33,174 nt of DNA from Nitrospirales bacterium. GTDB taxonomy: Bacteria > Nitrospirota > Nitrospiria > Nitrospirales > UBA8639. The stretch spans positions 1 to 33,174 of the forward strand of contig JAHRAK010000046.1 in NCBI GenBank assembly GCA_020027535.1, written 5' to 3'. The position numbers were made by a program, and so were the translations under genes. The notes under the pieces were generated by a model, which was given only the letters and a program-made list of their open reading frames with translations, did not search any database and was not told the DNA's origin. Shown here piece after piece: positions 28,874 through 33,174 of the stretch. Each line of letters begins with the position of its first letter. The stretch's first letter is position 1.

Positions 28874-29002
28874 TTCGATCCCAATCTCGATTGCACTCCA
28901 GCAGGAAGATGCGCCTTACCTTATCTCAACTTCTCGAGATCGGCAAGCACCCGCATGACAAGAGCAAGCCGCACACTTTCTGAACCTATTGGTAAAAATG
29001 CA

Positions 29003-29031
29003 TTGACGGGCACCCAGATTTTTGGTTTTAT
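29003..29031 (+). promoter_or_regulatory. Predicted promoter of the DUF1302-DUF1329-YCF48 cluster
   Basis: TTGACG (29003-29008, 5 of 6), a 17-base spacer and TTTTAT (29026-29031, 4 of 6) lie 57 bases before the DUF1302 ATG, in an AT-richer patch between the divergent unknown gene and the cluster. Confidence 0.4.
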
Positions 29032-29087
29032 TCGCCTGTCCACCTCGCCCTTGAACGTATTCAACCCCTACCTGCGAAACAACAAGG

Positions 29088-31025
29088 ATGAACATATGGG
29101 GACAAGAGACACGGGTAAATTTTCGCCGTTCCGGCTTCGGGTGGCAGGCTGGGGCATACGCGGCGGTGACGGCCTTACTGACGTCGGCCGTCGCACCACC
29201 TTCCCCATCCATCGCTGCGGAACTGCCCTACAACGAGAGCGGCATCACGGGATATTTCGACACCACCGTCTCGATCGGTACGGCGATACGGACCCAGGAG
29301 CGGGACAAAGCCATCATCGCCATCGCCAACGGCGGCTACGCGCCTTCCTTCAACGAAGATGACGGCAATCTCAACTACAACACAGGCGATTTCGTCTCCG
29401 CCAACGTCAAGGTCTCGCACGAGTTGCAGATCGACGTGGGCGAACTGAGTTTCTTTAGCCGTACGTTCTATTTTTACGATCACGCTGCCACGGCCAACGA
29501 CACCCGCCGCACGTCTCTGTCGGGCAAAGCCCAGCAGTATGCCGGACACGACATCCAACTTCTGGATGCGTATGTCAGCACCGATATCGACGTGGGCGAA
29601 TTCCTGCTTGCAATTCGAATCGGCAATCAAGTGCTCAACTGGGGCGAAAGCGTCTTCATCCGCAACGGCCTCAACTCGATCAACCCGATTGACGTTTCCA
29701 AGGTCCGCATCGCCGGCGCGGAGGTGCGCGACGTCGTGACTCCGATCCCGGCGGTCAATCTCAAAGTCGGCCTGACCGACAACCTGTCCTTGGAAGGCTT
29801 CTACCAGTTCCGGTGGCTTCATACCCGGCTCGAACCGGCCGGCACGTTCTTCTCGACCACCGACGCCGCAAGCCCTGGCGGAGACATCATCCATTTCGGA
29901 TTCGGCGATCCGCTCAGGGGCAACGACGAAGACGGCACGGCGGATCCATATTGCTACACGGGCCTTTGCTCGCGGTTGCCACGTGTCAGCGACCGGGATG
30001 CCAGGCACCAGGGCCAGTTCGGTCTGGCAGTGCGCTATTTCGCGCCGGAGCTGAACGACGCCGAACTGGGTCTCTATTATGCGCGCATCCACAGCCGCCT
30101 GCCACTGGTTTCGGCCCGAGCGGGGAACCCCCAAGCGCTGACGGACCCCAAAGGCTATGCCGGCTCCGTCCAATATTTTCGGGAATTTCCCGAAGATATC
30201 GACATCATGGGCGCAAGCTTCAACACCGAGATCGGCACCAGCGGGTTCGCGATCCAGGGCGAGGTGTCCTATCGCCGGAACCAGCCGCTCCAGATCGACG
30301 CCGTCGAAGTGATCCTTTCCACCTTGTCGCCGCTCCGGTTCGTGCACGTGCCCCAGACCCTGTTGCCACTGCTGCAAAATCCGGCTGCTTGCGCACAGAA
30401 TTTAGCGATTTGCCGACAGGCGCAAGGACTCGCACAGTTACAAGGGGCGGGAAGGTTGTTCAGCCGGAGCCAGACCGGTCCTCTCGCTCCCGGGGAAGAG
30501 GTCATCGGCTTTCGCCGCAAGGACGTGCTGCAGGCGCAGTTCGCCATCTCAAAGGTATCGGGTCCCATGTTCGGCGCCGATCAATCCCTGTTCCTGGTCG
30601 AGACCGGGTTCACCTATGTCCGGGACATGGAGGACAAATCGGCACTTCGCTACGATGGACCGGGCACGTGGACGAGCGGCAACCCGATCTTTACGCCCAT
30701 CATTCAGCCGGTGACCCAGAACGGTGGCTTTGCCGATCCGTTCTCCTGGGGTTACCGGATGGTCGCGCGGACAACCTACAACAACGCCATCGGCTCCGTG
30801 AACCTGTCGCCGCAGATCTCGTTCGCGCACGACGTGAGCGGCACGACGCCGGCACCGATCAGCAATTTCGTCGAGGATCGTAAATCCTTCACGCTGTCGA
30901 TCGAGGCGAGCTACCTGATTTCATGGCAGGCCATTTTGTCCTACACCAACTCGTTCGACGGCGGCGCGTTCAATCTCTTGAACGATCGCGACTTCGTGGC
31001 CAGCACGGTGAACTATTCCTTCTGA
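29088..31025 (+). CDS. DUF1302 family outer-membrane barrel protein
   Basis: The 645-residue protein has an N-terminal export signal ending near residue 44 (AVTALLTSAVAPPSPSIAA, then ELPYNE) and a long strand-rich body typical of the DUF1302 family: SGITGYFDTTVSIGTAIRTQ, NYNTGDFVSANVKVSHELQIDVG, LDAYVSTDIDVGEFLLAIRIGNQVLNWGESVFIRNGLNSINPIDVSKVRIAGAEVRD and the barrel ending VASTVNYSF with a terminal Phe. These features indicate an outer-membrane beta-barrel. Function is unknown; in other bacteria it is found with DUF1329, a YCF48-like protein and an RND exporter. The ribosome site (AAGG at -4) is unusually close, so the start is less certain. GC content is visibly higher than in the genes to the left. 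Confidence 0.86.
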   Translation: MNIWGQETRVNFRRSGFGWQAGAYAAVTALLTSAVAPPSPSIAAELPYNESGITGYFDTTVSIGTAIRTQERDKAIIAIANGGYAPSFNEDDGNLNYNTGDFVSANVKVSHELQIDVGELSFFSRTFYFYDHAATANDTRRTSLSGKAQQYAGHDIQLLDAYVSTDIDVGEFLLAIRIGNQVLNWGESVFIRNGLNSINPIDVSKVRIAGAEVRDVVTPIPAVNLKVGLTDNLSLEGFYQFRWLHTRLEPAGTFFSTTDAASPGGDIIHFGFGDPLRGNDEDGTADPYCYTGLCSRLPRVSDRDARHQGQFGLAVRYFAPELNDAELGLYYARIHSRLPLVSARAGNPQALTDPKGYAGSVQYFREFPEDIDIMGASFNTEIGTSGFAIQGEVSYRRNQPLQIDAVEVILSTLSPLRFVHVPQTLLPLLQNPAACAQNLAICRQAQGLAQLQGAGRLFSRSQTGPLAPGEEVIGFRRKDVLQAQFAISKVSGPMFGADQSLFLVETGFTYVRDMEDKSALRYDGPGTWTSGNPIFTPIIQPVTQNGGFADPFSWGYRMVARTTYNNAIGSVNLSPQISFAHDVSGTTPAPISNFVEDRKSFTLSIEASYLISWQAILSYTNSFDGGAFNLLNDRDFVASTVNYSF

Positions 31026-31137
31026 ACCGGAGGGACAGATGATAAGCCGTCCACCGGAAATATTGCTGAGATTTGAGCGGAGAATGCGAAGTCACTCTGA
31101 AGCAGAACGTTCCATGATGACTGTTGGAGGAAGACTC

Positions 31138-32496
31138 ATGAACGCACGAGGGATCATTTGGACAACGGTGCTGGTGGCACTGACCACGAGCACACCGGTG
31201 GCGGCGAAGGTCACAGCCGCCGAGGCGGCGAGGCTGGGTAAGGAGCTGACGCCGCTGGGTGCCACAATGGCCGGGAACAAATCCGGTTCCATCCCGGAGT
31301 GGCGGGGCGGAATCACCAAGCCGCCGGCCAACTACCAACCGGGCGCGCGCCCTCCGGACCCGTTCGCGGACGACAAACCGCTGTTCACCATCACCGCCGA
31401 CAATTTCCGGCGCTACGAAACACATCTTTCCCCGGGCCAGGCCGCGCTCTTTGAACGCTACCCACACACCTTCCGGATGCCGGTCTATCCCAGCCGGCGC
31501 TCCGCGTCCCTGCCGCAGCATATCTATGACCGGACAATCGCCAACGCGATGACCGCAACGCTGACCGAGCACGGCAACGGAGTGAGGAACGCCGCCGAAG
31601 GCATCCCCTTTCCAATCCCGAACAACGGACTCGAAGCGATCTGGAACCACCTGATGCGCTACCGCGGCCACACATCGAGCGCGACGAACGGGCAAGCATC
31701 GCCAACGGCCGATGGCAACTACGTCATGGTCGTCCTCAAGGAGGACGTGCTGTGGGAGTATTATCAGCCCGGTGCCACGACCGAGACAATCGACAACATT
31801 CTCGCCTATTTCCTGCAGGAGATCCTGTCTCCGCCGAGGCTCGCCGGGCAATTTCTGCTGGTCCACGAGACGCTCAACCAAGCGGCCGAGCCACGCAAGG
31901 CATGGACCTACAATCCGGGCCGGCGGCGAGTGCGCCGGGCGCCCAATATTGCCTATGACAACCCCGGTATCGCATCAGACGGCCAGCGCACCAACGATCA
32001 GCACGACATGTTCAACGGGGCACCGGACCGTTACAACTGGACGCTGGCAGGCAAACAGGAACTCTATATTCCCTATAACAGCTACAAGCTGCACAGCGAC
32101 CACCCCATCGACGACGTCCTGATGCCCGGCCACATGAATCCGGATCTGACGCGCTACGAGTTGCACCGGGTCTGGGTCGTCGATGCACGGCTGAAAGAAG
32201 GAACCAGACACATCTACGCCCGGCGCACCTTCTATATCGACGAGGATAGCTGGCAAGTCGCCATCGTGGACCACTATGACGGACGCGATCAGATCTGGCG
32301 AGTGAGCGAGGGGCACGTGATCAATTTCTACCAGGTCCCGTTGGTCTGGACCTCGACGGTAGCGGCATACGACGTGCAGAACGGACGCTATATCGTCAAC
32401 GGGCTCACCGTCGAGAATACGATCGTTGAGTTCGACGTGCCGATGAAGCACCAGGGGTTCACCCCACAAGCTTTGCGCAAACTCGGCCGCCGCTAA
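31138..32496 (+). CDS. DUF1329 family secreted protein
   Basis: The 452-residue protein has a signal peptide (residues 1 to about 22, MNARGIIWTTVLVALTTSTPVAA), then the DUF1329 body: VTAAEAARLGKELTPLGATMAGNKSGSIPEWRGGI near the N-terminus, NNGLEAIWNHLMRYRG, WTYNPGRRRVRRAPNIAYDNP, YNSYKLHSD, MNPDLTRYELHRVWVVDARLKEGTRHIYARRTFYIDEDSWQVAIVDHYDGRDQIWRVSEGH. This family is distantly related to LolA/LolB-type lipoprotein-sorting folds and is expected in the periplasm or at the outer membrane. GGAGGA at 31126-31131 supports the ATG at 31138; the longer frame from 31039 has no such site. It is 112 bases after the DUF1302 gene. Confidence 0.9.
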   Translation: MNARGIIWTTVLVALTTSTPVAAKVTAAEAARLGKELTPLGATMAGNKSGSIPEWRGGITKPPANYQPGARPPDPFADDKPLFTITADNFRRYETHLSPGQAALFERYPHTFRMPVYPSRRSASLPQHIYDRTIANAMTATLTEHGNGVRNAAEGIPFPIPNNGLEAIWNHLMRYRGHTSSATNGQASPTADGNYVMVVLKEDVLWEYYQPGATTETIDNILAYFLQEILSPPRLAGQFLLVHETLNQAAEPRKAWTYNPGRRRVRRAPNIAYDNPGIASDGQRTNDQHDMFNGAPDRYNWTLAGKQELYIPYNSYKLHSDHPIDDVLMPGHMNPDLTRYELHRVWVVDARLKEGTRHIYARRTFYIDEDSWQVAIVDHYDGRDQIWRVSEGHVINFYQVPLVWTSTVAAYDVQNGRYIVNGLTVENTIVEFDVPMKHQGFTPQALRKLGRR

Positions 32497-32550
32497 ACAG
32501 GACAGACCGTTCGGGGAAAGAAAGCGTAAGCCCTTACCCGAAAGATGCTT

Positions 32551-33174
32551 ATGAACCTGCCCTTCTCTCGATCCCTGGCGCTTGGGTTGTTCCTGGTTGC
32601 GGCCTCGACCGCTCCATCCCTGCTCTGCGCCGAATCGCTTGACGAGGCGGCGGCGATGGTGGTCTGTCCGGAGTGCGGCCTGATCACCGCTGCCATCGCG
32701 ATTCCAGGCGGCTTCGTCGCGGTCGGCGAGCGTGGTCTGATCGTTCACGGTACGGCTGGCAACTGGCAGCAGGCTCCGGCACCGTCCCGGCGCATGCTGA
32801 CCGCCGTAACCGGAACCGGTGGCGGAAATCTCGTCGCCATTGGGCACGACGCCCTGATTCTGGCGAGCCGCGAACCCGGAGCAGCCTGGACCGTCGTTCG
32901 GGCGAGCCCGGAACTGGACGCCCCGCTACTCGACATATGGATCGCCGGAAACGGCAGGGGACTCGCAGTCGGCGCCTACGGGATGGCTCTGGCCACTGAG
33001 AACCACGGCCTCGACTGGTCGCCCCGCGAGATCGATCCGGACGAACCACACTTCTACGCCATCCGCGAGGCTGCGGATGGAACACTCTTCATCGCCGGCG
33101 AATTCGGGACGGTACTCCGGTCCAGGAACGACGGCACAACCTGGACCAAGCTGGATGCCGGTTGGGACGGCACG
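32551..33174 (+). CDS. YCF48-like/BNR-repeat secreted protein (partial, runs off window)
   Basis: The frame is open to the window end (208 codons seen, no stop), so the C-terminus is missing. It begins with a signal peptide (LALGLFLVAASTAPSLLCA, then ESLDEA) and has short propeller-like repeats of the type GxxGxIxxSxDxGxTW: VGERGLIVHGTAGNWQQ, IGHDALILASREPGAAW, VGAYGMALATENHGLDW, AGEFGTVLRSRNDGTTW. This is the pattern of the Ycf48/Hcf136 (BNR-type) beta-propeller family, named for photosystem II assembly but widespread outside photosynthesis. The ATG at 32551 or 32545 are equally possible; GAAAG precedes the second. It follows the DUF1329 gene by 54 bases. Confidence 0.8.
   Translation, partial: MNLPFSRSLALGLFLVAASTAPSLLCAESLDEAAAMVVCPECGLITAAIAIPGGFVAVGERGLIVHGTAGNWQQAPAPSRRMLTAVTGTGGGNLVAIGHDALILASREPGAAWTVVRASPELDAPLLDIWIAGNGRGLAVGAYGMALATENHGLDWSPREIDPDEPHFYAIREAADGTLFIAGEFGTVLRSRNDGTTWTKLDAGWDGT

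Follow-up and report, generated by a model that had tools for sequence, protein, structure and literature searches.

A probably acquired cassette of the AmeABCD exporter type in a member of the Nitrospirales

The last three genes of the 33,174-base contig analysed here are, with a probability that we put at roughly 0.7, the first three genes of an acquired four-part hydrophobe exporter of the AmeABCD type, the fourth gene of which, ameD, would lie on a second contig of the same genome. A preliminary description of this DNA had called the cluster an envelope system of unknown function. As an envelope module for export or lipid handling it stands; the words "unknown function" are outdated, because the set corresponds to AmeABCD of Castellaniella defragrans and because homologues have been characterised both in that organism and in P. 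putida (PMC6394551, PMC10866462).

Results

Genes of the cassette

The window, that is, the whole stretch of DNA that was analysed, is an entire contig of 33174 bases (C117). The genome as a whole is referred to as G000, and C103, C43, and C101 are other contigs of it. Coordinates of all features are given in Table 1.

Table 1. Features of the ame cassette, its left flank, and the broken resident operon in G000
Feature	Position	Strand	Remarks
Left flank gene, 130 aa	28481..28873	-	Native, without Pfam match; same place in congeners
Left junction (about 28946-28985) and cassette leader	28946..29087	+	Congener alignment stops at 28948-28965
ameA-like, DUF1302 outer-membrane beta-barrel, 645 aa	29088..31025	+	Pfam E 9.4e-160, whole profile
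ameB-like, DUF1329 periplasmic LolA-like protein, 452 aa	31138..32496	+	Pfam E 2.8e-150, whole profile
ameC-like, YCF48-like beta-propeller with signal peptide	32545..33174	+	PSII_BNR/YCF48 E 1.6e-7
ameD-like, MMPL/RND protein	G000:C103:1-1647		Outside window; MMPL E 3.7e-13
Resident operon, broken	G000:C43:18508-22689 (L004)		Compare L174, L175, L176

The earlier reading of three same-strand genes encoding a barrel, a LolA-like protein, and a propeller is borne out by Pfam matches to DUF1302, DUF1329, and PSII_BNR. The ameA-like product begins with a signal peptide and ends in YSF. The open reading frame of the ameB-like gene opens at 31039; read from the sequence, the ATG at 31138 is the better, and probable, start, since GGAGGAAG stands before it and a signal peptide follows it. 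The encoded protein has an additional LolA_like match (Pfam, E 3e-7). The contig stops 210 codons into the ameC-like gene, and the Pfam E value of this gene refers to the 210 residues present; these are 57-59% identical to the full-length proteins of L017 and L018, two loci from gammaproteobacterial metagenome-assembled genomes (MAGs). A scan of the cassette leader for promoters and terminators found none, and there is no second DUF1302 or second full DUF1329 elsewhere in the G000 genome.

An MMPL/RND gene had been forecast just beyond the window. The window ends with the contig itself, and C103 opens inside precisely such a gene, whose product shares 75% identity with the L017 homologue over residues 231-769; the first ~230 residues are unassembled. 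Immediately beyond ameD, the GC content of C103 drops to genome level. The ameA, ameB, and ameC genes are contiguous on one strand of C117, and ameD is on a separate contig. Judged against L017, ~1.06 kb (the end of ameC and the start of ameD) is unassembled between the two contigs, and no overlap between their ends was found. That ameC and ameD adjoin is deduced from the flanks of C117 and C103, which are neighbours in congeners.

A sequence search of the PDB with the DUF1302 and DUF1329 proteins gave no match, and folds were therefore compared instead. The AlphaFold model of the ameA-like protein (pLDDT 76) is a barrel with ~18 long strands, and its closest folds are porins and the alginate exporter AlgE; these matches support a predicted barrel, of no particular barrel family. 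The model of the ameB-like protein (AlphaFold, pLDDT 87) has a LolA-like fold, closest to LolA3 of Porphyromonas gingivalis and to a solved DUF1329 protein. The L017 homologues of AmeC and AmeD match Ycf48 structures and the structure of MmpL5, respectively.

Recurrence of the four-gene order

The DUF1329 protein was scanned against 84,980 species genomes, which gave 119 relatives, 80 of which were kept. The trio had been described as recurrent and often accompanied by an MMPL/RND gene, and the order DUF1302-DUF1329-YCF48-MMPL is indeed present in most of the 80 homologous loci, a recurrence far above chance. As a clue to the substrate, the genes neighbouring the cassette give a mixed picture: the cassette aside, no gene family is common to more than close relatives. 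In the flanks examined, the G000 cassette has no terpene or hydrocarbon genes beside it. The nearest cassettes are those of the gammaproteobacterial MAGs (L017-L019). Between G000 and L017 or L018, second codon positions diverge least and third positions most, as expected for genes that are presumably under constraint. A secreted-looking protein with a KKSKSGICHCPGG motif is encoded just upstream of the cassette in all three of these MAGs (L017 7075-7854, L018 7150-7956, L019 5297-6088); it turned up at no other locus. A literature search on a sponge origin of the homologous MAGs found nothing.

Acquisition of the cassette

The preliminary description had taken the cassette for a transferred module partly on account of its GC content, which was given as 63-67% against about 48% in recN. 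Those values had been counted on single lines of 60 bases; over 1-kb windows, GC is 59-62% in the cassette and 52-54% in recN. The contrast is thus real, yet unexceptional. In 4-kb windows over 125 kb of G000, GC averages 56.1% (SD 3.1, maximum 62.7%), and the cassette is at 60.9%; the codon distances of its genes fall between roughly the 40th and the 95th percentile within the G000 sample, the contigs of which were picked by family hits and are not a random choice. The cassette therefore lies inside the genome's spread, an outcome named beforehand as speaking against transfer, and GC content and codon usage were rejected as proof of it.

Given that composition does not decide the matter, the case for acquisition rests on the distribution of the cassette, empty sites, a tree, and a scar in the closed congener G010, and on these grounds the proposed transfer is well supported. 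A full DUF1329 is found in one of the 14 genomes of the genus, G000 alone, and a DUF1329 match with E < 1e-20 in 4 of the 236 genomes of the order. The right flank of the cassette, on C103, is msrA. The 130-aa gene on the left has 77-88% DNA identity in congeners, where it adjoins a MutS-like gene. Four congeners (G003, G004, G011, and G012) have an empty site, with the left flank gene and msrA ~20-90 bases apart. At the same spot, G010 has a RelE-like and helix-turn-helix gene pair followed by the end of ameD beside msrA. This stretch is identical to the ameD end in 39 of 39 bases and absent from all other congeners; we regard it as an ameD remnant because it encodes LAWLL, against LAWLF in the gammaproteobacterial homologues. 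The most economical interpretation places the insertion of the cassette ahead of the split between G000 and G010, with a later loss in G010.

The content of the insertion site varies within the genus: the RelE/helix-turn-helix pair is present in G010 and G005, small genes in G009, and a cytochrome-c-like gene in G013 (L134, L160, L161, and L162).

We considered the possibility that the contig is chimeric or wrongly binned, with a cassette that stems from a different bacterium in the same metagenome. The 2.23 Mb assembly is indeed in 140 contigs with 3.3% contamination, both C117 and C103 break within the cassette, and its closest relatives are gammaproteobacterial MAGs. Such an error would have to account for native flanks on two separate contigs that are adjacent in congeners and, above all, for the tail of ameD that the closed G010 genome has at this very junction. 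Because the scar sits at the same place, a chimeric contig is very unlikely indeed.

One other full cassette was found in the family, in G033, which belongs to another genus. It is located elsewhere (L165 5409-15753), has ~45% GC, and has the A-B pair on one strand and the C-D pair on the other, with a 1170-aa gene in between. The presence of all four genes in G033 could point to vertical descent, whereby an ancestral Nitrospirales cassette was lost in nearly all descendants, and G010 shows that losses do occur. A tree had been proposed as a check on transfer. In a quick tree from a concatenation of three proteins, with G033 on a long branch, the G000 cassette groups with gammaproteobacterial L017-L019 with full support, and a single clade of G000 and G033 is rejected (p-AU 2e-113). 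Together with the scarcity of strong DUF1329 matches in the order, and with a G033 cassette that is interrupted, differently placed, and of different GC, this makes vertical descent highly improbable. Over the three proteins, G000 is ~72% identical to L017-L019, which excludes a recent transfer from them, and we infer that the donor was an unsampled proteobacterium.

The organism

Among the proteins encoded by G000 is a subunit, 1,090 aa or longer, that falls in the DMSO-reductase type II alpha family, as does NxrA. No 16S gene was found in the G000 genome. Relatives are spread over four family codes within the order, and four families of Nitrospirales have been described (PMC12342949). Genomes of the genus are 1.9-3.0 Mb in size, and G000 has ~56.6% GC in a 125-kb sample; for Candidatus Nitrosymbion, a nitrite oxidiser found mostly in association with sponges, the means are 2.36 Mb and 56.9% GC (PMC11812461). 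The organism is probably a nitrite oxidiser and a sponge symbiont.

A broken resident operon

The genus also has a resident operon of MMPL, LolA_like, and outer-membrane protein (OMP) genes. Of the 13 congeners, 10 carry one or more full-length open relatives of an MMPL gene; this gene is found together with a LolA_like gene in G012, G004, and G010, and in G012 and G004 an OMP gene with a weak DUF1302 match joins the pair. Like ame, the operon (L174, L176) thus combines an MMPL inner-membrane pump with a LolA-like carrier and a barrel-type OMP, but its pump is ~21-24% identical to AmeD and no YCF48-like gene was seen. In G000, lesions break the frame of all three genes of the operon, which relatives keep open. 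Measured against G004, ~527 bases are missing from the MMPL gene, which is also frameshifted, 10 bases are deleted from the LolA-like gene, and the OMP gene is frameshifted. Lesions of a single base may be assembly errors; a 527-base deletion plus several further lesions is hard to explain in that way. In G010, which lost ame, the resident MMPL and LolA-like genes are intact, and three congeners have neither system. A second MMPL paralogue of G000 (G000:C101:14523-16820) has one in-frame TGA and is either a pseudogene or a site of sequencing error.

Discussion

AmeABCD was described in 2018 in C. defragrans 65Phen as an HAE3 RND system that protects against monoterpenes; deletion of ameABCD led to poorer growth on unfunctionalised monoterpenes and slightly more Nile Red accumulated (PMC6394551). 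Both sets comprise a DUF1302 OMP, a DUF1329/LolA periplasmic protein, a COG4447 YCF48-like protein, and an MMPL/HAE3 RND protein, the gene order being probably shared (PMC6394551), and the lengths in G000 are similar to the 605, 451, 316, and 787 aa of AmeA, AmeB, AmeC, and AmeD (PMC6394551). The likeness meant here is one of family content, probable order, and lengths; the kinship of ameD refers to its grouping with A-B-D cassettes. The settings also differ, in that the C. defragrans genes lie in a monoterpene-degradation island of a heterotroph, whereas the G000 cassette stands alone between the 130-aa gene and msrA. Judged by its genes, the G000 set is of the AmeABCD type, an already described kind, in a host for which the literature searched reports no such set.

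Related sets have been met elsewhere. In P. putida, PP_0765/PP_0766 and PP_2018/PP_2019 are required for growth on Tween 20 and are predicted to form a transport complex (PMC10866462). Here too, DUF1302 and DUF1329 proteins go together with a periplasmic protein and a transporter of the RND type, but the genes are split across two loci, and the phenotype concerns growth on Tween 20 rather than tolerance to terpenes (PMC10866462). DUF1329, YCF48-related, and MMPL genes are strongly expressed in a benzene-degrading consortium, as part of a 'nanopod' cluster of benzene-degrading ORM2a (PMC13101534); this cluster includes additional genes and has a proposed function (PMC13101534). The HpnN hopanoid transporters are HAE3 members that move their substrate outward (PMC6394551); they share with the G000 set an MMPL/HAE3 inner-membrane pump, but are without dedicated periplasmic or outer-membrane partners.

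In the proposed mechanism, AmeD, a proton-driven inner-membrane protein of the HAE3/MMPL class of RND proteins, would pick up hydrophobic molecules from the membrane or periplasm, the proposed cargo being terpenoids, hydrocarbons, or fatty-acid-like lipids. Periplasmic AmeB, with the greasy cavity of a LolA-like protein, and AmeC, as a propeller scaffold, would hand the cargo onward to the outer-membrane barrel AmeA for export. Export is the most likely direction. That the substrate may be terpenoids of the host or its microbes is a guess that draws on the characterised relative and on where the organism probably lives.

The same four proteins might instead import long-chain lipids or other hydrophobic carbon, by way of the barrel, the LolA-like carrier, and the MMPL protein, to the inner membrane. 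The need of P. putida for PP_0765/0766 and partners on Tween 20 fits import as well as export (PMC10866462), and the cassette at L020/L021 adjoins acyl-CoA synthetase and beta-oxidation genes. Such neighbours are found at few loci, however; known HAE3 members, such as the hopanoid transporter HpnN, transport outward, and the C. defragrans mutant was more sensitive and accumulated more dye (PMC6394551). A probable autotroph would, furthermore, have little need of lipid import. We therefore think import unlikely, and favour export by an AmeABCD-type pump.

The state of the resident operon raises the possibility that ame took over from it in a probable sponge-associated nitrite oxidiser, driven by hydrophobic compounds of the host or community, e.g., terpenoids. 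As the pattern was noticed during the analysis, not predicted, and rests on one genome pair, we offer this replacement as a tentative and rather doubtful suggestion.

AmeABCD-type pumps are hereby extended to a probable autotrophic nitrifier. Growth on hydrocarbons would be unexpected in such an organism, and protection from surrounding hydrophobic compounds is therefore the likelier role. With just one of two MMPL-LolA-barrel systems of different build in each genome, the G000/G010 pair offers a natural test of whether both systems share one job, and the answer would help to establish what DUF1302 and DUF1329 do. What most deserves to be followed is the decay of the resident operon.
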